DNA from: Verrucomicrobiota bacterium
GTDB taxonomy: Bacteria > Verrucomicrobiota > Verrucomicrobiia > Chthoniobacterales > JAFAMB01
Direction of reading: 5' to 3'
Assembly: GCA_019233825.1 (NCBI GenBank)
Contig: JAFAMB010000040.1
Location: 1-34,570, forward strand
DNA: 34,570 bases
Numbering within the stretch: position 1 is the first letter of the stretch; the number at the start of each line of letters is the position of its first letter. Made by a program: the position numbers and the translations under genes. Shown here piece by piece: positions 8,446-34,309 of the stretch. A model generated the notes under the pieces. It was not told the origin of the DNA and ran no database searches. It was given only the letters and a program-made list of their open reading frames with translations.

Positions 8446-8591
8446 GGGGAGAGTTAGACATTAGCTGGAAGGCGGGAGGTAGCACTGATAATTTTGGGGT
8501 AACTAGGGAGGATGGAAACTAATGATGAGCTCGGTATGAGGTGACGTTGCCCAACGCAGTTATTAACAGAGAGGCAGAGCTGGGGAAAGGT

Positions 8592-10901
8592 ATGCACGGA
8601 ATCCTGCAAAACCGGTTTCAGATGTGTCGATTGGTGGTTGCGTTTTCCATCCTGGCGACTCTGGCGGCAGGGCGAGACGTTTTGACTTCGCGCAATGATG
8701 AGGCGCGTTCCGGTCTTCAGCCGGACGAGACCATCTTGACACCGGCAAACGTGTCAACGCCGTCGAACGGACAGCCTGGCTTTACGTTGTTAGACCAGCT
8801 TCCTGTCGACGACCAGGTTTACGCGCAGCCTTTCTACGTTTCTGCGGCAAATGTGTACGTAAACGGCGTGCTTCAGGGCGAGAAGAACCTCCTGATTATT
8901 GCGACTGAGAACGACAGCGTCTACTGCTATGGCGCGGATAGTGGGGCGCTTTATTGGCAGCAATCCTTGGTCCTTCCCGGAGAGACGCCAGCCGATTCGT
9001 TAGGGTGCGTCGATCTGCAGCCCCAGAACGGCATTACCAGCACCCCGGTCATCGACCGTGCGAACGGGCCAAACGGCACCATCTACGTCGTTAGTTTCAC
9101 CAAAAGCTCGGGAAATTACACTTACCGGCTGAACGCTTTGGATCTTGGCACCGGGAACAAAACGCTGGGTCCAACCGTCATTAATGCCGCCGTTGCTGGG
9201 AACGGTCCCGGGGCCAATGGCAACGGGGCCGTCGTCTTCTTGCCAAGCCAGCAAAGACAACGGACAGGCCTGGCGCTTGCCAACGGCAACATTTACATCG
9301 GCTTCGGTTCGATCTGCGATTCTCCACCATTCACGGGCTGGATGCTGGCTTACAGCCAAAACACCCTAACGCAGGTTGCAGCCTTTAGCTCTAACCCTAA
9401 CGGTATTCCGGCTTTTGGTTACGCCGGCAGCAGCGGCGCCGGCATCTGGCAAGGCGGCGTTGCGCCGGTCATCGCTCCAGGCCGCGGGAGAATTATATTT
9501 GCCACTGGGAATGGCCCATTTTACCCCGCCTCGAGCGATTACGGCGATACCGTTTTGCGGCTCGGTAAAAGCTTAAACGTGGTGGATTCCTTTACCCCGG
9601 CAAATGAGGCCCTGCTTGAGGAAGACGACCTCGATTTAGGTAGCGGTGGCTGCACCATGTTCACCGTGGCAGGCCACTCGCTCATCGCCATCTCAGGGAA
9701 AGACGGCATTATCTATCTTCTGGACTTATCCAAGCTCTGGGCTCAATACAACGGTCAATACAACGATTATATCTACCAGGAACTCGATGGGGCGAATCCC
9801 GGCGGAATTCGGGGTAACGCAGCTTATTTTAATGGTTCACTCTATTACGGACCCAACGGAGGGGCATTACGGCAATTCACTTTTAACAGCAGCGGGATGT
9901 TGCAAGGACCGACGAGCGTTTCGCCCACGGCCTTTGCTTATCCCGGCACCGTCCCAAGTGTGTCGGCAAACGGTACCCAGAATGGCATTGTGTGGGCGAT
10001 TGAAGTCCCGAACAATGGTGCGGGCATTACGACTGGTCCAGCGGTTTTACACGCGTATGCTGCGAATAACCTTCAGAACGAATTGTTCAGGAGCGCCCAG
10101 AATTTTGGCGACGGGGTTAAATTTTCCGTGCCGACAATTGCCGGCGGCAAAGTTTTTGTGGGAACAAAAAGCGCAGTAGGCGTTTTTGGGCTGCCCGCCC
10201 CGACGCCCGCCCCGACGCCTACGCCTGCGCCTACGCCTGCGCCTACGCCTACACCGACACCTACGCCTACACCGACACCGTGCCCTCCGTGCCCGACATC
10301 AGCAATTCAGTCGAACTTTAACGGCACAGCGATTGGGGCAGGTGACACCATCTGGTTTAATGCCCATATCCAGGCGAGCGGGATACCCAGCTCCGGCGCA
10401 ACGATCAGCTTCAGCTGTTCGACGATCACGTCCAGTGCGTTCACGGCGTCCGTTCCCGACGGGGTAATTATCTTCAGCCCGACCGCCACTTGCGCCAGTA
10501 CTTCGTTTAGCAATAATACCTGGACGACGACCGTTCCGGTCTCGGGGAGTGATGAAATTTTCCTGACCGGTCTGGGTTTCCCAGTGCCGTCAGGTTTGCC
10601 GGGCGGCGGTATTTCGCCGACCTGGGGTGGTATCTTCAGCGCCTCTGTTCCCGGCATATCCGTGCAGTGGCAATGGGGTGCGGCCGTCTACACGTGCTTT
10701 CCGTCTGACCCCAACGTGCTTAATCTCAAGCCGACCCACCAGAACGCATGCAATGTCAACAACGGGGACCATGCGGGGACTCCGGAAAATCCGTCGTACC
10801 AGCAGTGTGTGACCGGCGGAGCCACGGGCGGTGGCGGTTCGAACTTTACAGGAGGATGGAGCGGTACGGTGTCGGTATCGGATATCTGCGCGCCGCAATG
10901 A
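8592..10901 (+). CDS. Secreted quinoprotein-like beta-propeller protein with Pro-Thr linker and C-terminal domain
   Basis: About 769 residues from ATG 8592, which has GGGGAAAGG just upstream; the longer frame from 8541 lacks such a site. A signal peptide is visible at MCRLVVAFSILATLAAG. The next ~530 residues look like a PQQ-type beta-propeller: LLIIATENDSVYCYGADSGA followed by LYWQ, NGITSTPVID, GTIYVVSF, LNALDLGTGN, SLIAISGKDGIIYLLD and GGKVFVGTKSAVGVFG near the end. A linker of repeated PAPTPTP units (coded at about 10195-10283) ends in PCPPCP. A C-terminal domain of roughly 200 residues follows, rich in Ser, Gly, Trp and Cys (QWQWGAAVYTC, NACNVNNGDHAGTPENP). The propeller may act as a surface or secreted enzyme or binder, but I see no clear quinone-binding or catalytic residues. 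It is followed 46 bases later by xseA, probably without functional connection. Confidence 0.78.
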   Translation: MHGILQNRFQMCRLVVAFSILATLAAGRDVLTSRNDEARSGLQPDETILTPANVSTPSNGQPGFTLLDQLPVDDQVYAQPFYVSAANVYVNGVLQGEKNLLIIATENDSVYCYGADSGALYWQQSLVLPGETPADSLGCVDLQPQNGITSTPVIDRANGPNGTIYVVSFTKSSGNYTYRLNALDLGTGNKTLGPTVINAAVAGNGPGANGNGAVVFLPSQQRQRTGLALANGNIYIGFGSICDSPPFTGWMLAYSQNTLTQVAAFSSNPNGIPAFGYAGSSGAGIWQGGVAPVIAPGRGRIIFATGNGPFYPASSDYGDTVLRLGKSLNVVDSFTPANEALLEEDDLDLGSGGCTMFTVAGHSLIAISGKDGIIYLLDLSKLWAQYNGQYNDYIYQELDGANPGGIRGNAAYFNGSLYYGPNGGALRQFTFNSSGMLQGPTSVSPTAFAYPGTVPSVSANGTQNGIVWAIEVPNNGAGITTGPAVLHAYAANNLQNELFRSAQNFGDGVKFSVPTIAGGKVFVGTKSAVGVFGLPAPTPAPTPTPAPTPAPTPTPTPTPTPTPCPPCPTSAIQSNFNGTAIGAGDTIWFNAHIQASGIPSSGATISFSCSTITSSAFTASVPDGVIIFSPTATCASTSFSNNTWTTTVPVSGSDEIFLTGLGFPVPSGLPGGGISPTWGGIFSASVPGISVQWQWGAAVYTCFPSDPNVLNLKPTHQNACNVNNGDHAGTPENPSYQQCVTGGATGGGGSNFTGGWSGTVSVSDICAPQ

Positions 10902-17978: not shown

Positions 17979-18737
17979 TCAAGGTTGGTCGCTCATCTCA
18001 GATTCTACTTCTCCCATTATGCGGCGCGCGAGTCGGCCAAGCAGATAGGTCGTTACGATAGTGACGATGAAGCCGCTCCCCCAGAGTAGATAATCGTGCA
18101 GATCCGGTTTTCGGGTTCCTCGCGCCATATCGACGCCGAATTGCCCGAGAGTACCAATAAACGCGTAGAGAAAGAGTCCCGGACTTTGACCGAGCGCCAC
18201 CCAGAGCAGACAGCGGCTGAGACGCACGCGGGTTAACCCATAAAGGTAATTTAACAGGCTCGAAGGTGCCAACGGGTTCAGTTGTGACAATACGACGATC
18301 TTCCAGCCGTGGCGCGCTATGGCTCCGTCCAGGATGCGCAGTCTGCGGTGGTTGGAAAGGAGCCTGTCAATACGCTGGCGTCCCACTTTTCTGGCGATCA
18401 TAAAGGCAGAGGCTGCTCCCAAGAGGTTTCCCGCTAAAACCAAAAAAAATCCCCACCAGAGCCCAAAAAAGAATCCGCCGCCCATGCTCAGGATCCCGCC
18501 CGGCAATAGCAACAAATTACAAAGTGCATAGGTAATCGGGTAAACGAGGCCGCTCCAAAAACCGAGCTGCTGAACATACTCGCGTGCATCGCCGATCCAG
18601 TTGAGGATCGGATATTTTGTGGATGCGGCGAAGAGGGCAACCAGAGCGAGCAGCAGTCCGCCCCATTGAATAATCCAGGACCAAGGGACCCTATGATAAG
18701 TTGCGGACGAACTGTGCGAGCTCGGCGGTGGTGTCAT
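17979..18737 (-). CDS. TVP38/TMEM64 (DedA-like) membrane protein
   Basis: A 252-residue integral membrane protein. After a Ser/Pro-rich start come WIIQWGGLLLALVALFAAS, LVYPITYALCNLLLLPGGIL and the family core GGGFFFGLWWGFFLVLAGNL, followed by GAASAFMIARKVGR. SQLNPLAPSSLLNYLYGLTR matches the second conserved loop of the family (R..P..P...+NY..G), though the usual Arg is Gln here. Family members are thought to move or balance lipids across membranes. Its first 47 bases overlap the 3' end of the homocysteine methyltransferase gene in another frame, which suggests tight coupling. No in-frame ATG closer to the membrane segment was seen. Confidence 0.88.
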   Translation of the reverse strand: MTPPPSSHSSSATYHRVPWSWIIQWGGLLLALVALFAASTKYPILNWIGDAREYVQQLGFWSGLVYPITYALCNLLLLPGGILSMGGGFFFGLWWGFFLVLAGNLLGAASAFMIARKVGRQRIDRLLSNHRRLRILDGAIARHGWKIVVLSQLNPLAPSSLLNYLYGLTRVRLSRCLLWVALGQSPGLFLYAFIGTLGQFGVDMARGTRKPDLHDYLLWGSGFIVTIVTTYLLGRLARRIMGEVESEMSDQP

Positions 18738-20514
18738 AAGCGAGGAAAGGTGTGATCAGGTAAATTCCGGGGAAATACTCCAAAACGGCACGCACCACGT
18801 CTTTCGCGATTTCTATGCCTTGACGACGTCCTTGTGGTCCTTCCGTCCCGGCCATGCGAGACCGGATTTCATCCGGGACGATGATTCCCGGAACCTCATG
18901 ATGTAAAAACTCAGTCTGTTTTCCGTTCAACAACGGCCAAACGCCAGTCAATATCGGTACCCTGAGATGCTTGGTTCGTGTGTGCATCTGTTTAACGAGC
19001 GTCTGATCGAAAACTGGTTGCGTCATGACGTAACGCGCCCCGGCTGCGATCTTGCGTTCGAGTCGTGAGATTTGAGCGTCCAGGTTTTTGGCGTTGGGAT
19101 TAAAGGTGCAACCCGTAACGAAATCTGTGGGGTATTTAATGTTCTTGCCCGCAAAGTTATAGCCTTTATTCAAGCCGCAGATGATCTCCATCAGTTGGAT
19201 GGAGTTAACATCGTATACAGAAGAAGACCCTGGATGATCGCCGAATTTGGCAGGGTCTCCGGTCAAAGGCAAGATGTGTCTGATGCCAAGTGCAGCGATA
19301 CCCATGAGCTCGCTTTGGAGGCCGATGAGATTTTTGTCTCGGCAGCTGATGTGGAGCAAAGGCATTATGTTGTACTGCTGTTTGAGGATCGCGCCGATCG
19401 CCAGGTTGCTGACGCGGAGAATCGCCAGCGAATTATCTGCCAAGGTGATCGCGTCGCTGCCGGCATCGATTAAGGCCTGCGCCGCCGTGAAGTATTTTGC
19501 AAGATCCAGGGTCTTGGGCGGATCAAGCTCGGTCACGACGACCGTCTGACCGCTGGCCATTAAATCCAGGATGCTGGTCTCGGCCGGTCTTCTCTCGGTT
19601 TTTAATTCCGGTTCAGCGAACCATTGGATAACCGGTTTCGACCGAACCGGTTTTAAGCCGGCGATCGCTTTCGCCACTTCGCGAATGTGCTGCGGTCCAA
19701 CACCGCAGCAGCCGCCAATCAGGCTCGCGCCTTGCGTGACAAATTCCTTCGCCGCCTGACCCAGATACTCCGGCGCAGCGTTGTAAAGGTAACGTCCATT
19801 TTGATAACGGGCATATCCGGCGTTAGGAAATGCACTGATCAAAAATTCAGCCGGAATCCGTCGCAAAACGCGCAGCATCGCGCGCGGGCCGGTGACACAG
19901 TTGACTCCAACGACGTTGGCACCGAGTCGGACCAGCTCCCGAAACGCCTGAGTAATCGGCAAGCTGGATGGCAATCGGCCTTCCTCGGAGGATACCATCG
20001 AGCAGATGACGGGAATCTTGGCGTCGAGTTTTCTCACGGCGTCGAGAGCGATCCGGATTTCTTCGAAATCCAGGAACGTCTCCAGAAAAACAACGTCGAT
20101 CCCAGCATCCAGGAGCGCTTCCGCCTGTTCCCTGAACAATGCTGCTCGGTCGCTGTTTTGACCCTCGGTTTGAGGATCTGCGATCCCCAGTGGCCCGATG
20201 CTCGCGGCCAGATAAGTTGGACGCGAGCCGATGGATTGACGCGCCAACTGGACCGCCGCCTGATTCAGTTCTTTAACGCGACTCTGCAAGCCATGTTTTG
20301 AAAGTCGCGCACCGTTTGCTCCGAATGTATTGGTCTCGATCAAGCGAGCGCCCGCCTGTACATAAGAGTCATGAATGCGCGTGACCAGGTCGGGCGCGGA
20401 AACGTTCAGTTCTTCAAAACAGACTTCGAGCGGCACTCCCGCCGACATCAACTCGGTTCCCATCGCGCCGTCGCCGCACACTACAGCAGACTTTAGTTCT
20501 TCCAGAAAATCCAT
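18691..20514 (-). CDS. Bifunctional homocysteine S-methyltransferase / 5,10-methylenetetrahydrofolate reductase
   Basis: A 607-residue fusion. The N-terminal ~290 residues are a cobalamin-independent-type homocysteine methyltransferase (pfam S-methyl_trans): GDGAMGTELMSAG, GARLIETNTFGANGARL, VGVNCVTGP and GASLIGGCCGVGP, giving the zinc ligands Cys206, Cys269 and Cys270. From about residue 318 the chain is a MetF-type reductase: TVVVTELDPPKTLDLAKYF, DAITLADNSLAILRVSN, HILPLTGDPAKFGDHPGS and ARYVMTQPVFD. The two halves would supply methyl groups as 5-methyl-THF and use them in methionine synthesis, as in YitJ-type proteins. No SAM or B12 riboswitch is recognisable in the 138-base upstream spacer, which is filled by a repeat array. 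Confidence 0.92.
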   Translation of the reverse strand: MDFLEELKSAVVCGDGAMGTELMSAGVPLEVCFEELNVSAPDLVTRIHDSYVQAGARLIETNTFGANGARLSKHGLQSRVKELNQAAVQLARQSIGSRPTYLAASIGPLGIADPQTEGQNSDRAALFREQAEALLDAGIDVVFLETFLDFEEIRIALDAVRKLDAKIPVICSMVSSEEGRLPSSLPITQAFRELVRLGANVVGVNCVTGPRAMLRVLRRIPAEFLISAFPNAGYARYQNGRYLYNAAPEYLGQAAKEFVTQGASLIGGCCGVGPQHIREVAKAIAGLKPVRSKPVIQWFAEPELKTERRPAETSILDLMASGQTVVVTELDPPKTLDLAKYFTAAQALIDAGSDAITLADNSLAILRVSNLAIGAILKQQYNIMPLLHISCRDKNLIGLQSELMGIAALGIRHILPLTGDPAKFGDHPGSSSVYDVNSIQLMEIICGLNKGYNFAGKNIKYPTDFVTGCTFNPNAKNLDAQISRLERKIAAGARYVMTQPVFDQTLVKQMHTRTKHLRVPILTGVWPLLNGKQTEFLHHEVPGIIVPDEIRSRMAGTEGPQGRRQGIEIAKDVVRAVLEYFPGIYLITPFLAYDTTAELAQFVRNLS

Positions 20515-23350: not shown

Positions 23351-23588
23351 GTCAGGAGTACACGGAGTTGCAGGAGTTCAGGAGTTCAGGAGTCAGGAGT
23401 TGCAGGAGTTCAGGAGTTCAGGAGTCAGGAGTCAGGAGTCAGGGGAACTGGAGCGTGCCGCACTAAAGAGGGTACAAAATGCCATACAGCCCTTCGGGCA
23501 AGATCCACGCTTTCACTTTCTTCGCGCAACTTAACGTCTGGAACCCGGACTTCTCCTGAACTCCTGCAACTCCTGAACTCCTGCCTCC
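23351..23588. repeat. GGAGTTCA/GGAGTTGCA tandem array facing an inverted copy
   Basis: 23351-23442 is built of CAGGAGTT, CAGGAGT and GGAGTTGCA units of 7-9 bases. 23551-23588 carries the inverse, CTCCTGAA, CTCCTGCAA and CTCCTGCC. About 110 bases of unrelated sequence lie between. The whole non-coding spacer between the OppB-type gene and apt is occupied by this structure, which could form a long imperfect hairpin. Confidence 0.85.
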
Positions 23589-26121: not shown

Positions 26122-27047
26122 AGCAGATCATCCTAGGGACTCGCGGCAGCCAGTTGGCATTAGCCCAGGCTGAGCTCGCAAAGCAGGCGGTTGGCCGCCT
26201 GCCGGAGAGGCCAGAGGTGATTACCCGGATCATCGCGACGACCGGCGATCGACGACTGGATATCAGCTTGAACCAACCAAGTTCGAAAATTGCCAAAGGC
26301 TTGTTCACTAAGGAGTTGGAAGAGGCTCTGCTGACCGGAGAGATCGATATCGCTGTCCATTCCCTGAAGGACCTCCCGACCGAATTGCCGCCGGACCTTG
26401 AATTGGCCGCCACCTTGCCGCGCCACGATCCTGTGGATGTGCTCGTGTCCAAATCCGCGAATTCACTCCGCGAGATTCCGGTGAGCGGAATGGTTGCAAC
26501 CGGCAGCCCGCGACGGGCGTGCCAGATAGCGGTTCTCCGGCCCGATCTCCATGTGACTGACATCCGGGGAAACGTGCCTACTCGAATCGCGAAGCTTCTG
26601 GCCGAGGGTTCATGGAACTCGCTCGTGCTCGCTAAGGCCGGTTTGGAAAGAATTGGTTACAGCCTGACCGGCAGTCGAATGGAATTCGCAGGACAAGGAC
26701 TGTTGGTTTCGGACCTGGTGGAGATTCTACCGGCAGTGGGCCAAGGCGCGATTGGCTTGGAAATCAGGGCAAACGATGTTGGACTGAAGCAAATGCTGAC
26801 CTCTGTCAACCATGCTCCAACCTGGTTTTGCACCGGAGTCGAACGCGAGTTCTTGAGGCTGCTAGGTGGCGGTTGCCAACTGCCGTTGGGTGTTCGTACC
26901 CGGATTCGAGAGGGCGAGCTACACTTCGAAGCGATCTTTTTCGATGAGTGCGGCAAGCCGAGGTCTGGAGTTGTCTCGGGTCAATACCAAACGCCCTGGG
27001 AAGCCGCCTCCGCCCTTCTCGACAAAATCTATGAAAATGCAAAGTAA
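26118..27047 (+). CDS. hemC: Hydroxymethylbilane synthase (porphobilinogen deaminase)
   Basis: 309 residues starting at GTG 26118, which overlaps the hemA stop. The enzyme polymerises four porphobilinogens into hydroxymethylbilane. ILGTRGSQLALAQAELAK, SLNQPSSKIAKGLFTKELEE, DIAVHSLKDLPTELP (catalytic Asp region), VATGSPRRACQI and LLGGGCQLPLGVR are all conserved; Cys253 would carry the dipyrromethane cofactor. The last ~17 bases overlap the next gene. Length and motifs are normal. Confidence 0.97.
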   Translation: MKQIILGTRGSQLALAQAELAKQAVGRLPERPEVITRIIATTGDRRLDISLNQPSSKIAKGLFTKELEEALLTGEIDIAVHSLKDLPTELPPDLELAATLPRHDPVDVLVSKSANSLREIPVSGMVATGSPRRACQIAVLRPDLHVTDIRGNVPTRIAKLLAEGSWNSLVLAKAGLERIGYSLTGSRMEFAGQGLLVSDLVEILPAVGQGAIGLEIRANDVGLKQMLTSVNHAPTWFCTGVEREFLRLLGGGCQLPLGVRTRIREGELHFEAIFFDECGKPRSGVVSGQYQTPWEAASALLDKIYENAK

Positions 27048-28545
27048 AGGTGTCTGCGTTCTAGCCGGAGCGGGTCCGGGCGATATTGGACTGGTCACCC
27101 TGCGAACTAAGGAGGCGGTCGAACACGCGCAAGTAATTGTGTACGACTACCTCTGTAATCCCGAGATTCTGAAGTGGGCGCCGGCGGATGCGGAGATTAT
27201 TTATGCCGGAAAGAAATCCGGCCGGCACACGTTGCGCCAGGAGGAGATCAACCAATTTCTTATCGATAAGACAAACGAAGGAAAACGAGTTGTGCGGTTG
27301 AAGGGAGGCGACCCGTTTGTTTTCGGAAGAGGCGGTGAAGAGGCTGAAGCATTGGCGGCGGCAGGGCTGGCCTTCGAAATCGTGCCCGGGATAAGCTCTG
27401 CAATCGCGGTTCCTGCATACGCGGGGATACCATTGACTCACCGGGATGTCGCTTCTTCCTTTACCGTCTTTACCGGACACGAAGACCCAGCCAAAGAAGC
27501 AACGGCTGTTGATTACAAAGCACTGGTCGCGGGGAAGGGCACTTTGGTCATGCTGATGGGCATGGAGCGGCTTGAAGCGGTGGTTCCACAGTTACTTGCA
27601 AGCGGTGCGGATGTCCATCTGCCAGTCGCGGTGATTCGTTGGGGGACGACCGGCCGTCAGGAAACAGTGGTGGGAGAACTTGGCTCGATTGTCGCGGCGG
27701 CCGACGGATTTCAGCCCCCGGCAATTACGGTCTTTGGTCGTGTGGTTGACCTTCGGGCAAAACTGAGCTGGTTCGAGCGCCGACCGCTCTTTGGCCGCCG
27801 GATTGTGGTCACGCGCACGCGGAAGCAGGCGGGAGCGCTGAGCGCAAAGTTGAGAATCCTCGGCGCGGACGTCTACGAGCTACCGACGATCCAGGTGGAG
27901 CCACCGAAGGACCTGATGGAATTCGGTGAACTAGTCCGGGACGCCTATCAATATGATTGGCTGATTTTCACCAGTCCGAATGGCGTCGATGCGTTCTTTG
28001 AGATGTTTTACCGGCTCTACAATGATGCGCGCAACATCGGGAACGTAAAGATTGCGGCAATCGGTCCCGCAACCGCCCAACGGATCAAAGATTTCCATCT
28101 TTCGGTCGAAATGCAGCCGAAGGAGTTCATTGCTGAGGCTATCATCGACGGGCTACAGGAATTTGGAAGCGTCGAAAACCTCAAATTCCTGGTGGTGAGA
28201 GCAGAGGGAGCGAGGGAAGTCTTGCCCAGGCGCCTTTCGGAACTTGGGGCTATCGTCGACGAGGCGATCGCCTATCGAACGGTGCCGGAGACCAAGGATG
28301 TCGCGGGCGGTCTGGAGAGATTTCGAGCCGAGGGAGCCGATCTGGTAACCTTTACAAGTTCATCGACTGTGGAGAACTTTCTGGCGTTGAAGCTACCATG
28401 GCCAGACCAGTTAAGAACGGCCAGTATCGGGCCAATCACCTCCGATACGATGCGGAAAAATGGTCTGCATGTGGACGTGGAAGCCGAACGGTACGACATG
28501 GACGGCTTGGTGGAGGCGATTCTCAGATTGTATTCGGCCGGCTAG
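27031..28545 (+). CDS. Fused uroporphyrinogen-III C-methyltransferase / uroporphyrinogen-III synthase
   Basis: 504 residues from ATG 27031 (or ATG 27037), inside the last codons of hemC. The first ~245 residues are a CobA-type methyltransferase: CVLAGAGPGDIGLVTLRTKE, VIVYDYLCNPEIL, VVRLKGGDPFVFGRGGEEAE, VPGISSAIAVPAYAGIPLTH and MLMGMERLEAVVPQL. The second part, from about residue 255, is a HemD-type synthase: RRIVVTRTRKQAGALSAKLR, DWLIFTSPNGVDAFFEMF, KIAAIGPATAQRIKDF and DLVTFTSSSTVENFLA. HemD closes hydroxymethylbilane into uroporphyrinogen III; the methyltransferase part diverts it to precorrin-2, the start of siroheme and cobalamin. Fusion places both activities at the branch point. No CysG-type dehydrogenase or ferrochelatase domain is attached. 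Confidence 0.95.
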   Translation: MKMQSKGVCVLAGAGPGDIGLVTLRTKEAVEHAQVIVYDYLCNPEILKWAPADAEIIYAGKKSGRHTLRQEEINQFLIDKTNEGKRVVRLKGGDPFVFGRGGEEAEALAAAGLAFEIVPGISSAIAVPAYAGIPLTHRDVASSFTVFTGHEDPAKEATAVDYKALVAGKGTLVMLMGMERLEAVVPQLLASGADVHLPVAVIRWGTTGRQETVVGELGSIVAAADGFQPPAITVFGRVVDLRAKLSWFERRPLFGRRIVVTRTRKQAGALSAKLRILGADVYELPTIQVEPPKDLMEFGELVRDAYQYDWLIFTSPNGVDAFFEMFYRLYNDARNIGNVKIAAIGPATAQRIKDFHLSVEMQPKEFIAEAIIDGLQEFGSVENLKFLVVRAEGAREVLPRRLSELGAIVDEAIAYRTVPETKDVAGGLERFRAEGADLVTFTSSSTVENFLALKLPWPDQLRTASIGPITSDTMRKNGLHVDVEAERYDMDGLVEAILRLYSAG

Positions 28546-29214: not shown

Positions 29215-29853
29215 ATGAACAAAGCTGTTGTTTTCGGTCTGGGTTGCCTCGGGATAATAATTCTCGTGCTCGCCGGTTTGTTCGCTGCTCTTGCGGGCGG
29301 TTACAACGGGCTGGTCAGGTCCTCCACAGCGGTCGACGCCTCCTGGGCGCAGGTGCAGACACAGTATCAACGTCGAGCGGATTTGATTCCCAACCTCGTA
29401 CGGACCGTCGAGGGAGCCGCCAATTTCGAGAAATCGACGTTGACCGATGTCGTCAATGCCCGGGCCAACGCAACAAAGGTCACGATCGATCCGTCGAAGG
29501 CCCCCACTGACCCCGAGCAGCTTCGACAGTTTGAACAGGCGCAGAACGCGCTCACCGGGACTTTGGGCCGGCTCTTGGCGGTCAGCGAAAGGTATCCGGA
29601 GCTGAAAGCGAACGGCAATTTTCGTGATCTCCAGGCTCAGATCGAGGGCACCGAAAATCGGATTGCCGTGGCGCGCCGTGATTTCAACAACACCGCTCAA
29701 GCTTATAATGCTCAAGTCCGTTCGTTTCCGACCATGATTTACGCTGGTTGGTTCGCATTCCAACCCAAGCCGTACTTCCAAAGTGTTGCGGGCGCAGAAA
29801 CCGCCCCAACCGTCAGTTTCCCCTCATTCAGCCCAACCCCGAGCCCCAGGTAG
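29215..29853 (+). CDS. lemA: LemA family protein
   Basis: 212 residues. One N-terminal membrane helix (GCLGIIILVLAGLFAALAGG) precedes YNGLVRSSTAVDASWAQVQT, QYQRRADLIPNLVRTVEGAA and the long helical bundle. LKANGNFRDLQAQIEGTENR, IAVARRDFNNTAQAYNAQVR and FPTMIYAGWFAFQPKPYFQS are the classic family motifs. The tail is Pro/Ser-rich. LemA proteins are membrane anchored with the bundle outside the cytoplasm; their molecular job is poorly known. It is followed by two TPM-domain genes, the usual partners. Confidence 0.95.
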   Translation: MNKAVVFGLGCLGIIILVLAGLFAALAGGYNGLVRSSTAVDASWAQVQTQYQRRADLIPNLVRTVEGAANFEKSTLTDVVNARANATKVTIDPSKAPTDPEQLRQFEQAQNALTGTLGRLLAVSERYPELKANGNFRDLQAQIEGTENRIAVARRDFNNTAQAYNAQVRSFPTMIYAGWFAFQPKPYFQSVAGAETAPTVSFPSFSPTPSPR

Positions 29854-29930
29854 CCGTTCAGGGTTCACCGTTCGCCGTTGACGCCTTGCACTTTAGACCG
29901 CTGAACGGCGAACGGCGAACGGTGAACGCC
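29853..29930. repeat. GTTCACCGTTCGCCG tandem array facing its inverted copy
   Basis: The left part (29853-29883) contains CCGTTCAGGGTTCACCGTTC and CGCCGTTGACG. The right part (29901-29930) is built of GAACGGC and GAACGGTGAAC units, the inverse of the left. The two parts face each other around 17 bases, immediately after lemA and just before a 46-bp palindrome. Confidence 0.8.
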
Positions 29931-29932
29931 GA

Positions 29933-29978
29933 GCCTGCATCGCTCACAAATCTCCAAAGATTTGTGAGCGATGCAGGC
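29933..29978. repeat. 46-bp palindromic repeat, copy 3
   Basis: The arms GCCTGCATCGCTCACAAATC and GATTTGTGAGCGATGCAGGC are identical to those of the copy at 12301-12346; only the 6-base loop differs (TCCAAA here). It lies in the lemA/TPM spacer, so it is likely transcribed within an operon. Confidence 0.85.
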
Positions 29979-29998
29979 TAACGCTGTTAGATTTGACA

Positions 29999-30775
29999 AT
30001 GGCTTACCGCGCGATTGTCGTTTTGACTCTGCTGATTCTGCACGCGGTGGCTGCGGACATTCCGCCGAAGCCGCAGCGTTATTTCAACGACTTTGCTTCA
30101 CTGGTCGATGCGCAGACGGCTCAGCGGCTGAACCGAGAGCTGGAGGAATTCGAGCGGCAGACCTCAAACCAGCTCCTGGTTGTTATCTATCCCAGCTTAC
30201 CGCCAAATGCGGCTATTGAAGACTTCACTCAGGATGCGTTCCGGGCATGGAAACCCGGCCAGCAAGGACGGAATAACGGCGCCATACTCTTTGTGTTTGT
30301 GAAAGATAGGAAAATGCGAATCCAGACCGGATACGGTCTGGAAGGCGCGTTGCCCGATGCGATCTGCAAACGCATCATCTCGGACGAGATGGCGCCGCGG
30401 TTTCAGGCGGGGGATTTTGCCGGCGGATTGACTGCGGCTGTCAATGCGATGATCGCAGCCACGCGCGGGGAATACACGGGTGCTGGCCGGACTGTTGCTG
30501 AGGCTCGCGGTCAGGCGCGGCACAGTGAGGGTGCTTTACTTAACTTGATCATCTTTCTGGTTGTTCTCGGCATCATCGTGCTGTCCTGGCTCCGAGCCGC
30601 GCGCCGGGGTACCGTTTACTCAAGTTCCGGCTCCAGCGGACCCGGAAGCCCGGGAGGTATCTGGTGGATGGGAGGAGGCGGCGGTGGGGGGGTTGGTGGC
30701 GGTTCTTCCGATGGAGGCGGATTTTCCGGTGGCGGCGGCGACAGTGGCGGGGGTGGGGCAAGCGGCAGCTGGTGA
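29999..30775 (+). CDS. TPM-domain protein, exported, with Gly-rich C-terminus
   Basis: 258 residues from ATG 29999. A signal peptide (IVVLTLLILHAVAA) is followed by a TPM (YgcG-type) domain: YFNDFASLVDAQTAQRLNRE, QTSNQLLVVIYPSLP, NNGAILFVFVKDRKMRIQTG, YGLEGALPDAIC and GDFAGGLTAAVNAM. A membrane helix (LLNLIIFLVVLGIIVLSWL) comes next, then a tail made almost wholly of Gly and Ser (GGGGGGGVGGGSS, GGGGASGSW). This architecture is typical of TPM proteins next to LemA. TPM domains have been assigned phosphatase activity in one plant case, and the bacterial role is open. A TTG at 29993 is the only earlier start in this frame. Confidence 0.92.
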   Translation: MAYRAIVVLTLLILHAVAADIPPKPQRYFNDFASLVDAQTAQRLNRELEEFERQTSNQLLVVIYPSLPPNAAIEDFTQDAFRAWKPGQQGRNNGAILFVFVKDRKMRIQTGYGLEGALPDAICKRIISDEMAPRFQAGDFAGGLTAAVNAMIAATRGEYTGAGRTVAEARGQARHSEGALLNLIIFLVVLGIIVLSWLRAARRGTVYSSSGSSGPGSPGGIWWMGGGGGGGVGGGSSDGGGFSGGGGDSGGGGASGSW

Positions 30776-30783
30776 GATTCTCC

Positions 30784-31218
30784 ATGAAGCCGCATCATTT
30801 CCTCAAGGCGATCGATCATGACAGAATTGTTTCGGCCATAGGGGCCGCGGAGAAACGGACCAGCGGCCAGATACGCGTCTATGTGAGTCATCGAAAGCGA
30901 GTCAATGTGTTCGAGTTCGCGAACCGTCGGTTCCTAAGCCTCAAAATGGATCGCACTCCGTTCAGGAATGCCGTGATGATCTTCCTGGCGCCCCGCACGC
31001 ATAAGTTCGCTGTGGTCGGCGATGTGGCTGTTCATGCCAAGTGCGGCGACGGTTTCTGGCGCAGTGTGATCGCTGCCATGGAACCGCTGCTGAAGCGCGG
31101 CGATTTTACAGAAGCGGTCGTAGTTGGAGTCACCAAGGTCGGCGACGTTCTCGCTGAACATTTCCCGCGATGGTCGGACGACCGGAACGATCTGTCCGAT
31201 GCGGTTGTTGAGGAGTGA
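30784..31218 (+). CDS. Second, cytoplasmic TPM-domain protein
   Basis: 144 residues from ATG 30784, eight bases after the preceding stop. HHFLKAIDHDRIVSAIGAAE, KRTSGQIRVYVSHRK, FRNAVMIFLAPRTHKFAVVG and GDFTEAVVVGVTKVGDVLAE are those of the TPM domain without signal or membrane segments; the same pair of long and short TPM genes is often found beside lemA. An open frame extends upstream to 30664, but that part is a shadow of the neighbour's Gly-rich tail. Confidence 0.88.
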   Translation: MKPHHFLKAIDHDRIVSAIGAAEKRTSGQIRVYVSHRKRVNVFEFANRRFLSLKMDRTPFRNAVMIFLAPRTHKFAVVGDVAVHAKCGDGFWRSVIAAMEPLLKRGDFTEAVVVGVTKVGDVLAEHFPRWSDDRNDLSDAVVEE

Positions 31219-31224
31219 ACTTGC

Positions 31225-31320
31225 GGTTCGGAGTTCGGAGTTCGGAGTTCGGAGTTCACAGTTTACCGAACCCCTGACCCGAACCCCGAACCCCGAACCC
31301 CAAACCCCGAACCCCGAACC
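31225..31320. repeat. GGAGTTC tandem array facing a CCCCGAA array
   Basis: 31225-31257 repeats TTCGGAG 4-5 times. 31267-31320 repeats CCCCGAA/CCCCAAA about seven times, which is the approximate inverse. Fifteen or fewer unrelated bases lie between. The array fills the spacer between the TPM genes and the mutase genes, and ends two bases before the ATG of the B12-binding gene, so any leader of that gene would consist largely of it. Confidence 0.85.
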
Positions 31321-31322
31321 TT

Positions 31323-32522
31323 ATGCTCCCAATTCGGATCTTGACGGCGGTCCCGATTTGCGACGGACACGACAGCGCCATTAACACGATTAACTTGGAA
31401 TTCATTCGGCACGGCGTGGAAGTGATTTATCTCGGGTTTCACCGCTCGGCGAAGGACATCGTGCGAGCGGCCATTCAGGAGGATGTAGTCGCGATCGGAC
31501 TTTCAACGTATAACGGCGGCCACATTGAGTTTTTCGGGGAAGTCATTGACCTCTTGGAGCAGCGCTGTCCGGCTCCGCCAATAAAACTTTTCGGCGGGGG
31601 AGGCGGAACCATTACCCAGGAGGACGCTCAAATCATGTACGGCCACGGTGTTGACCGAATCTTCTTCGCCGGCACGCCGCTTGATGAGATGACGAAATAC
31701 TTAAGGAGTGCTTATGGTGCGATTGCCCAGTCTCCCTATGATTCGGAGTTCGCCGGCAGTGATCAATTTCTATCGCGACAATTAACGCTGGCTGATGATG
31801 GCAGCGGTTTGTCGCCGCAGGCTTCTGAAACGGCGTGGGCGGGCGATAAACCTGTCCGCGGCACGAGGGTGATCGGTTTGACCGGTCCGGGAGGCGCCGG
31901 TAAAACAACGTTGATCGATGAGTTGGTTTTGCGGTTTCTTCGCTCGCACGCCGAGGATCAGCGCGTGGCCATTCTCTCCCACGATCCAAGCATCGTCGGT
32001 TCGGGTGCGCTTCTCGGTGACCGGGCCACGATGATATATTCGCAACATGACCGAGTCTTCATGAGGAGCGTTGGCACGCGCGGTATGGCTGGAGGCCTCA
32101 GTCTTTCTACCGATCGGTGCCTCAAAATATTGGCCGAGAGCAATCTATTCGAATTCATACTCTTGGAGACGGTTGGCACCGGCCAGGAAGCGATCCCATT
32201 TGGGATTGACAAGCTTGTGGTCGACCTGTCCGTCCTGGTTATGCCGCCGGATTATGGAAGTCGACTACAGCTTCAGAAGATCGCGATGATTGACGTAGCG
32301 GATGTGATCGTTGTGAACAAGGCGGATCTGCAGGGAGCCCGAACTGCCGTTGCCGAAATTGAATCCCGGATTCGCACGAATCGAAAGGGCCAACGTTTGC
32401 TGCACACCCAGGCGAACCGGCATCGCGACTCAGGCGTCGATCAGCTTTTTGAGCTACTATTCACTGACCCTGAAACTAACACCAACACCGGCACTGGCAC
32501 TAATACCGGCACTCCCCAATGA
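31323..32522 (+). CDS. B12-binding plus MeaB/ArgK-like G-protein, the front half of a split IcmF
   Basis: 399 residues. Residues 1-125 are a cobalamin-binding domain: DGHDSAI at 14-20 with the lower-ligand His16 (DxH), STYNGGHIEFF (61-71) and KLFGGGGGTIT. This is closer to IcmF than to methylmalonyl-CoA mutase. From about residue 182 comes a MeaB-type G-domain: Walker A GPGGAGKTT (188-196), AILSHDPS, RSVGTRGMAGGLS, ETVGTGQ (282-288) and NKADLQ (332-337). Such G-proteins guard and repair B12-dependent mutases. The chain ends in TNTNTGTGTNTGTPQ, coded by a tandem repeat at about 32475-32515, exactly where IcmF would continue into its mutase domain. The stop overlaps the next ATG by 4 bases (ATGA). 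Confidence 0.9.
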   Translation: MLPIRILTAVPICDGHDSAINTINLEFIRHGVEVIYLGFHRSAKDIVRAAIQEDVVAIGLSTYNGGHIEFFGEVIDLLEQRCPAPPIKLFGGGGGTITQEDAQIMYGHGVDRIFFAGTPLDEMTKYLRSAYGAIAQSPYDSEFAGSDQFLSRQLTLADDGSGLSPQASETAWAGDKPVRGTRVIGLTGPGGAGKTTLIDELVLRFLRSHAEDQRVAILSHDPSIVGSGALLGDRATMIYSQHDRVFMRSVGTRGMAGGLSLSTDRCLKILAESNLFEFILLETVGTGQEAIPFGIDKLVVDLSVLVMPPDYGSRLQLQKIAMIDVADVIVVNKADLQGARTAVAEIESRIRTNRKGQRLLHTQANRHRDSGVDQLFELLFTDPETNTNTGTGTNTGTPQ

Positions 32523-34309
32523 CTTCTCTCGGACAAGTTGTTTTGGCCATCGAAAAATACCGGCGATTCGTCCTTGACGAGACCCGGAAAGCTCGGACCA
32601 ATGAGGAATTTGGCCAGCAAATCCTGCAGAGGTGGCAGGAGGCAAAGGCTGGAATTGGAACTACGTTAACGCCCACCGGACTACGGCTACCGCGCTTGGC
32701 TTTGCCTGATTTGGACGAAGCCGGGGAAATTGCGCGCTTCCTTTGCGAAGAAGGATTGCCCGGCGAGTTTCCTTTTGTAACGGCTGCTTATCCGGAGCAG
32801 TATCTGGAGCCTGCACCGACGAGCTCGACGGATAACGAAAATCGGCGGAACGGCGACAAGACGGTAGTCGAAGAACCAACGCGGCTGTTTGCCGGTTTAG
32901 GTCTGGCTGAGGACACGAATGCGCGATTTCATTACTTGTCCCGCAACCAGCGGAGCAAGCGGTTGAGCACCGCGTTTGACGGGCCGACGCTTTACGGCGT
33001 GGGTGCAGGAGCCGGCGGAGTTTTCGGCAAGATCGGGGAGGGCGGCGTGGCGATTGACACGGTGGAAGATATGGAGCGGCTGTACGCCGGGTTCGCGCTC
33101 GATCAGCCGAATGTTTCAGTTTCCATGACGATTTCCGGCCCGGCGCCGATTCTCCTCGCCATGTTCCTGGCCGCGGCGAAGCATCGATTTGGTCCGGACG
33201 TCGGCGCTAAATTGCGTGGAACCATCCAAGCCGATGTCTTAAAGGAGGTCCAGGCTCAGAACGAGTTGATTTTCCCGATCGAACCATCGCTCCGGTTTCT
33301 GGCGGACATGGTCGACTATTCTTGTCGCGAGATGCCACGCTGGTACCCGATCTCGATTAGCGGATATCACATTGCCGAAGCAGGCGCGACTCCGGTTCAG
33401 CAGGCGGCCTACACTCTATCGAATGGGTTTGCTTATGTGGACTATTTCCGGAATCGCGGCTTGGATGTGAACGTATTTGGGCCGCGTCTCTCGTTCTTTC
33501 TGGACTGCGGTTTGGACGTCGAATACATCGCGCTGGCGCGCGTTTGCCGGAAGATCTGGGCTATTGGAATGCGCGAGGTGTTTGGCGGAGGTAACCGGGC
33601 GCAGATTCTGAGGTTGCACACTCAGACCAGCGGCCGCTCGCTGATCGCCGCGGATTGGCGTAACAACCTCACGCGAACGGCACTGGAGTTGATGCTGGCT
33701 TGCATGAACGCGACAAATTCCTGTCACAGCAATTCGGCCGATGAACCTTTCACCACGCCGAGCGAGGAATACGCCCGCTACGCCGCTCACGCTCAGGCCA
33801 TCCTGCTTGAGGAGAGTGGGTTGTTTAAGCATATGATGAACACCCTGCCGGGATCTCCCGGCATGAAGGTGGTTGGTAACGCTGTCGAAGAAGCGATCCT
33901 GGAAGAATTTCGTGAAATTGAGCAGCAGGGTGGCGTGATTGGCGCGGTCGCGCGGCGCTATCAGCGGAGTCAGATTCAAGCGTCCGGCCATAGGTTGGAA
34001 AGCCAGATCTATGACGGGGTTCGTCCTGTGATCGGCTTGAATCGATATTGCGATCAGGGTAGAGACTGGCCTGAGGTCCGGATGATCCGCACGCCGAAAG
34101 AGAAGAAGCAACTGCAACAGGATCGGCTGCAGGATTTTGAAAAGCGGCATGCCGGAGAATCTGAGCGCTGCCTGAACCGGCTATCGGACGTGGTTGAGAG
34201 TGGAGGCAACGTTTTCGAGGAGTTAACGCATACGGTCGAACATTGTTCGCTGGGTCAGATTACCGAACGATTGTGTGAAGTTGTGGGAAAGTTTCGGCCG
34301 ATGGTGTGA
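32519..34309 (+). CDS. Acyl-CoA mutase catalytic subunit, the back half of a split IcmF
   Basis: 596 residues with IcmF-type order: an N-terminal linker, GEFPFVTAAYP, then TRLFAGLGLAEDTNARFHYL, KRLSTAFDGPTLYG, VSVSMTISGPAPILLAMF and RGTIQADVLKEVQAQNELIF. ISISGYHIAEAGATPVQQAA (active-site His284), LSFFLDCGLDVEYIALARV, HTQTSGRSL and SCHSNSADEPFTTPSEEYAR follow. Phe124 and Gln247 stand where methylmalonyl-CoA mutase has Tyr and Arg, which is the isobutyryl-CoA mutase pattern. The enzyme would interconvert isobutyryl-CoA and butyryl-CoA, or a related branched pair, with the corrinoid bound on the partner. There is no B12 domain of its own. Most glycine-rich and substrate loops appear intact. Confidence 0.92.
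   Translation: MTSLGQVVLAIEKYRRFVLDETRKARTNEEFGQQILQRWQEAKAGIGTTLTPTGLRLPRLALPDLDEAGEIARFLCEEGLPGEFPFVTAAYPEQYLEPAPTSSTDNENRRNGDKTVVEEPTRLFAGLGLAEDTNARFHYLSRNQRSKRLSTAFDGPTLYGVGAGAGGVFGKIGEGGVAIDTVEDMERLYAGFALDQPNVSVSMTISGPAPILLAMFLAAAKHRFGPDVGAKLRGTIQADVLKEVQAQNELIFPIEPSLRFLADMVDYSCREMPRWYPISISGYHIAEAGATPVQQAAYTLSNGFAYVDYFRNRGLDVNVFGPRLSFFLDCGLDVEYIALARVCRKIWAIGMREVFGGGNRAQILRLHTQTSGRSLIAADWRNNLTRTALELMLACMNATNSCHSNSADEPFTTPSEEYARYAAHAQAILLEESGLFKHMMNTLPGSPGMKVVGNAVEEAILEEFREIEQQGGVIGAVARRYQRSQIQASGHRLESQIYDGVRPVIGLNRYCDQGRDWPEVRMIRTPKEKKQLQQDRLQDFEKRHAGESERCLNRLSDVVESGGNVFEELTHTVEHCSLGQITERLCEVVGKFRPMV

Follow-up and report, generated by a model that had tools for sequence, protein, structure and literature searches.

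Background

The closest described relative of the locus reported here is IcmF (NF045497; C. metallidurans, PDB 4XC6), in which a B12 domain, a MeaB-type G domain and an acyl-CoA mutase follow one another in a single chain of ~1060-1200 aa. In the two-subunit ICM and HCM enzymes (IcmA/IcmB and HcmA/HcmB), the mutase large subunit is free, the B12 domain sits on the other chain, and the chaperone MeaB is a separate protein. Canonical methylmalonyl-CoA mutase (MCM), paired with MeaB, has the same catalytic fold but carries its B12 domain C-terminal to the mutase. An engineered construct brings MeaB together with the isolated MCM B12 domain, with no mutase barrel (PDB 8DPB).

Studies of IcmF and MeaB show that two G proteins pair, with switch III of the first inserted into the GTP site of its partner, and that this pair acts as a wedge, moving the B12 domain away from the barrel so that cofactor can be loaded; in fused IcmF, such pairing requires oligomerisation (PMC9974510, PMC10481361). 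Roles have been assigned to the GTPase motifs and to the Gln and Lys of switch III (PMC10481361). The benefit, if any, of fusing IcmF, and the need for G-domain pairing between enzymes, are questions raised by that work (PMC9974510).

Here we describe a gene pair whose products are very probably, judging from their sequences, the two chains of one AdoCbl-dependent isobutyryl-CoA-type acyl-CoA mutase, the Verrucomicrobiota counterpart of fused IcmF. The pair lies in a stretch of 34,570 nucleotides that was analysed as a whole, referred to below as the window.

Two overlapping genes divide the domains of IcmF

31323..32522, + strand: B12-G protein gene; ORF, 399 aa; cobalamin-binding and MeaB-type GTPase chaperone domains in one chain
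31335..31652, + strand: B12-binding domain, residues 5-110 (Pfam PF02310, E 2e-13)
31368-31370, + strand: His16 of the DGHD motif, aligning with the cobalt-ligating His
31863..32495, + strand: G domain, residues 181-391 (Pfam PF03308, MeaB, E 3.8e-36)
31884-31910, + strand: P-loop GPGGAGKTT, inside the G domain
32268-32279, + strand: switch III Gln316/Lys319, inside the G domain
32519..34309, + strand: mutase subunit gene (substrate-binding, catalytic); ORF, 596 aa; its start ATG overlaps the upstream stop (ATGA)

The ORF listing of the window places the two genes in different frames with a 4-bp ATGA overlap, and the coordinates, overlap and frame change given in the first-pass annotation are all borne out. 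The G domain also carries LLGDR, switch II Glu282 and NKAD, and the mutase ORF matches Pfam MM_CoA_mutase (E 5.9e-106). The NCBIfam IcmF model (NF045497) aligns with the B12-G ORF over model positions 2-398 (261.2 bits) and with the mutase ORF over positions 499-1073 (529.9 bits); neither reaches the equivalog cut-off of 1500 bits. For both ORFs the best PDB relative by sequence is the fused IcmF of C. metallidurans, with IcmF identities of ~31-41% for the B12-G protein and 33-46% for the mutase. IcmF is also the top structural match of both predicted models, with a TM-score of 0.81 and a nearly end-to-end alignment for the B12-G protein (pLDDT 82) and a TM-score of 0.77 for the mutase, whose model is of only moderate confidence (pLDDT 69). 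The Pfam domains, together with IcmF as the closest model and structure for both halves, thus uphold the earlier claim of an IcmF-like enzyme with its domain order kept.

What the pair shares with IcmF is its domains, their N-to-C order, the linker helix, the specificity residues and switch III; it differs in being made of two chains and in having a shorter linker. Like ICM and HCM, it has a free mutase large subunit and a B12 domain on another chain, but the B12 domain and the chaperone, which are separate proteins in those systems, are here joined in one 399-aa chain. This confirms that the layout is distinct from IcmA/IcmB/MeaB. Moreover, the free large subunits of ICM and HCM lack the linker helix and belong to another clade. 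The B12-G protein matches the 8DPB construct in combining B12 domain and chaperone away from a mutase barrel, although that is a two-chain laboratory construct and this a natural single chain.

The cut precedes the linker helix

32525..32653, + strand: helical hairpin at the N-terminus of the mutase, residues 3-45; its first helix is homologous to the IcmF interdomain linker helix
32475..32519, + strand: low-complexity C-terminal tail of the B12-G protein, TNTNTGTGTNTGTPQ; 18-bp-period repeat, limited to the closest relatives

In an alignment with 25 fused proteins, the cut falls in a variable loop that connects the G domain to the linker helix, in agreement with the earlier claim that the chain is cut in the linker. 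Helices are predicted at mutase residues 3-27 and 29-45, and pLDDT in the hairpin block is mostly 82-96. Comparison of the mutase N-terminus with the fused linkers by hhalign gave 89% (E 2.3e-6), with residues 3-27 corresponding to the IcmF linker helix, whereas no such helix was detected at the N-termini of free ICM/MCM large subunits (hhalign 0.4%). The coiled part of the linker is longer in the fused proteins, which also have a strand there that the split form lacks.

The first-pass annotation had placed a tandem repeat at the cut and had suggested that its expansion, or a frameshift, made the split. The stretch 32475-32515 does have an 18-bp period, with a self-match of 74% that none of 5000 shuffles of its own letters equalled, and it encodes the last 15 residues of the B12-G protein, which are predicted to be disordered (pLDDT < 50). 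However, Tandem Repeats Finder did not list it even at score 30, and 88 of the 34,529 windows of equal size across the 34.6-kb window score as high, so that what stands is a short low-complexity stretch of 18-bp period. Of the 20 split loci that were aligned, the window and L031, a relative with 91% identity to it, were the only two with such a tail. An origin of the split in repeat expansion or frameshift is ruled out, since the sampled Verrucomicrobiota homologues are split as well without the repeat, and the split predates the radiation of the lineage.

Other repeats occur in the window. The spacer just 5' of the B12-G start (31226-31320) is taken up by two heptamer arrays (GTTCGGA x4.6, CCGAACC x8), similar arrays of octamers are present at 23352-23443 and 23553-23583, and a 786-aa ORF at 8541-10901, with no Pfam match at 1e-6, contains a hexamer/18-mer repeat (10193-10280).

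The split form is widespread in Verrucomicrobiota

Searching 84,980 species genomes with the mutase returned 80 relatives, most of them Verrucomicrobiota, with identities of at least 61%; this and the other locus counts are approximate because a few genomes are possibly present twice under different handles. The B12-G gene was a separate ORF wherever the upstream region was present, and all Verrucomicrobiota-type homologues with both genes were split, among them the isolates Chthoniobacter flavus Ellin428 and Haloferula sp. BvORR071 and the single-contig genome G195. Spacing varied among the 77 adjacent pairs: 33 share the 4-bp overlap, one overlaps by 26 bp, 16 are separated by 0-60 bp, 23 by 61-300 bp and four by ~1 kb, the largest spacer being +1199 bp. 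In L046 the ~1-kb spacer holds a GNAT acetyltransferase gene, and in the lichen-associated genome G365 the mutase and B12-G genes are on different contigs (L035 and L179). Neither linkage nor tight co-translation is therefore required.

No fused IcmF above the model cut-off was found in 289 sampled genomes of the window's phylum (Verrucomicrobiota). In the phylum to which L108 belongs (a Bryobacterales deposit), 56 of 247 genomes have one, as do 70 of 197 in that of L101 (a Phycisphaerales deposit). Each of the 56 fused loci that were examined is a single frame of at least 1062 aa. L101 was placed in the split clade, and the split-type presence in both L108 and L101 possibly reflects transfer or mis-binning. 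The L108 pair (L108:4154-6653) contains runs of N and is followed by a carboxyltransferase/AtuA-like region.

Several candidate exceptions were set aside. G253, proposed as a fused member inside the phylum with an open frame of 1109 aa, has two in-frame stops between the domains. A supposed B12-G fusion on a haloarchaeal plasmid of Halomarina has MeaB as a separate ORF. Of the split forms proposed for other phyla, the matches in G597, G580 and G409 run into or near contig ends, and in G619 the MeaB and mutase genes are separate.

A survey of homologues had been named in the first-pass annotation as one test that could refute it, should the split prove to be a standard, described subfamily. It is indeed the standard form in Verrucomicrobiota; in the open-licence literature, however, we found no description of a natural B12-G protein with a free mutase, a result that does not establish that none exists. 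The arrangement is old and conserved, and it apparently works.

Phylogeny and origin of the split

Mutase trees were built from 92 rows and from a careful set of 48 rows, with MCM, ICM and HCM included. In both, the split proteins form one clade, the fused proteins form another, and the two are sisters apart from MCM, ICM and HCM (SH-aLRT 99-100 in the 92-row tree; bootstrap/SH-aLRT 100/99 or better in the 48-row tree). The mutase subunit groups with fused IcmF (100/100) and not with IcmA/HcmA. The tree of the B12-G half gave the same result, which shows joint inheritance of the two halves. A recent origin of the split within either group is excluded by the present sampling, although the root is a weak point owing to long outgroup branches.

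That an assembly error or a recent frameshift at the repeat broke one fused gene might be read from the shared strand, the ATGA junction and the repeat-like sequence at the cut, but we give it practically no credence. Some 80 loci from independent assemblies are split alike, including isolate genomes (L099, L107) and the single-contig genome, their junctions differ, with spacers of up to 1.2 kb and one unlinked pair, the repeat is absent from relatives, and both genes are under purifying selection. Together, the number of split loci, the isolates and single-contig genome among them, and the varied spacing exclude such a break. The trees instead point to a single ancient event on the stem of the split clade, which may be either a fission of IcmF or the survival of a B12-G stage that predates mutase fusion; the sisterhood of split and fused forms fits both. 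Under the second history, the ancestor was never fused, B12 domain and chaperone having joined first and the mutase having been added later only in the IcmF lineage. We regard this as quite possible, if somewhat doubtful. The split clade is not nested within the fused one, the longer coiled part and extra strand of the fused linker are absent from it, and two events are needed under both histories. Against it, the N-terminal helix of the mutase is homologous to the IcmF linker and was not detected in free ICM/MCM large subunits, and the gene order is the IcmF domain order, both of which are simply explained if a gene was cut.

Conserved residues and selection

32888..32890, + strand: Phe124, specificity residue (IcmF F598; Tyr in MCM)
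33257..33259, + strand: Gln247, specificity residue (IcmF Q742; Arg in MCM)

Both residues, earlier taken as signs of isobutyryl-type specificity, align with C. metallidurans IcmF F598/Q742, once a 20-residue tag in the PDB chain is allowed for, and occur without exception in the 86 split and 56 fused homologues, a result that supports that claim. Among 17 outgroup mutases, 13 have Tyr at the Phe124 site and 13 have Arg at the Gln247 site. His16 is likewise invariant (79/79 split, 56/56 fused). In the 79 split proteins, the P-loop Lys, the acids of switches I and II and the Gln/Lys of switch III vary little or not at all, and they are the same as in the 56 fused ones. Where fused IcmF has a P-loop Ser, 71 of the 79 have Thr. 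Values of dN/dS against near relatives were 0.054-0.153, indicating that both genes are under purifying selection.

Genome context

The B12-G protein is the sole MeaB-family protein in 26 of 28 genomes, and the two exceptions carry, on the same contig, a separate methylmalonyl-CoA mutase-like gene near an extra MeaB of its own. An adenosyltransferase is present in 17 of the 20 genomes checked; it was not found in the window's genome (71% complete) or in two relatives, of 74% and 97% completeness. In several relatives, the genes beside the pair encode a thiolase, SDR, 3-oxoacid CoA-transferase, acyl-CoA dehydrogenase, carboxyltransferase or AtuA. Directly upstream of the B12-G gene in the window (29215-31218) are a LemA gene followed by two TPM-domain genes, with no acyl-CoA genes.

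Similar-looking ORFs lie upstream in L033 and L034; the Pfam scan covered the window's copies only. Elsewhere in the window, one ORF (18691-20514) joins a homocysteine S-methyltransferase domain to methylenetetrahydrofolate reductase, and another (26866-28545) fuses a tetrapyrrole methylase to uroporphyrinogen-III synthase, after hemA- and hemC-like genes.

Proposed mechanism

The genes most likely encode a functional isobutyryl-CoA-type mutase, in effect a known enzyme made as two chains, and the B12-G and mutase chains are expected to form a complex. Its reaction would be a carbon-skeleton rearrangement, probably of isobutyryl-/n-butyryl-CoA and perhaps of isovaleryl-/pivalyl-CoA, that feeds beta-oxidation-like steps. 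Gene neighbourhoods do vary, with a thiolase, SDR and CoA-transferase in some and an acyl-CoA dehydrogenase, carboxyltransferase and AtuA in others, and IcmF also turns over isovaleryl- and pivalyl-CoA (PMC9974510). We nonetheless consider it unlikely that another branched or hydroxylated acyl-CoA takes the place of isobutyryl-CoA as substrate, as the invariant Phe/Gln pair is that of fused IcmF and unlike the Tyr/Arg of MCM. More speculative still, and to our minds improbable, is the idea that the B12-G protein serves as a mobile carrier of cofactor with its own chaperone, with loading or repair taking place off the mutase and the entire subunit being exchanged. If true, cofactor would be replaced by subunit swapping, whereas fused IcmF and MCM-MeaB prop open a tethered active site.

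For the two-chain isobutyryl-CoA-type mutase, the retained GTPase and switch III residues make a cycle like that of IcmF and MeaB most likely, with the B12 domain free of the barrel. On the model of those systems (PMC9974510, PMC10481361), the active site would form when the B12 domain of the B12-G chain docks on the mutase chain. With GTP bound, two B12-G chains would come together through switch III of their G domains, and the G-domain pair would prise the B12 domain from the barrel, so that an adenosyltransferase could load AdoCbl or damaged cobalamin could leave; GTP hydrolysis would then allow the active site to close. Because no covalent tie joins the B12-G and mutase chains, this pairing need not crosslink enzymes into supramolecular assemblies, unlike in fused IcmF.

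Annotation of such loci should be corrected accordingly: both genes fall far under the IcmF equivalog cut-off, yet together they apparently form an IcmF-type enzyme. The B12-G protein is the natural equivalent of the minimal B12-domain/MeaB construct on which structural work has been done. As a natural sister of fused IcmF whose B12 domain is kept with its chaperone but freed from the catalytic barrel, the pair allows a direct comparison between the two systems.
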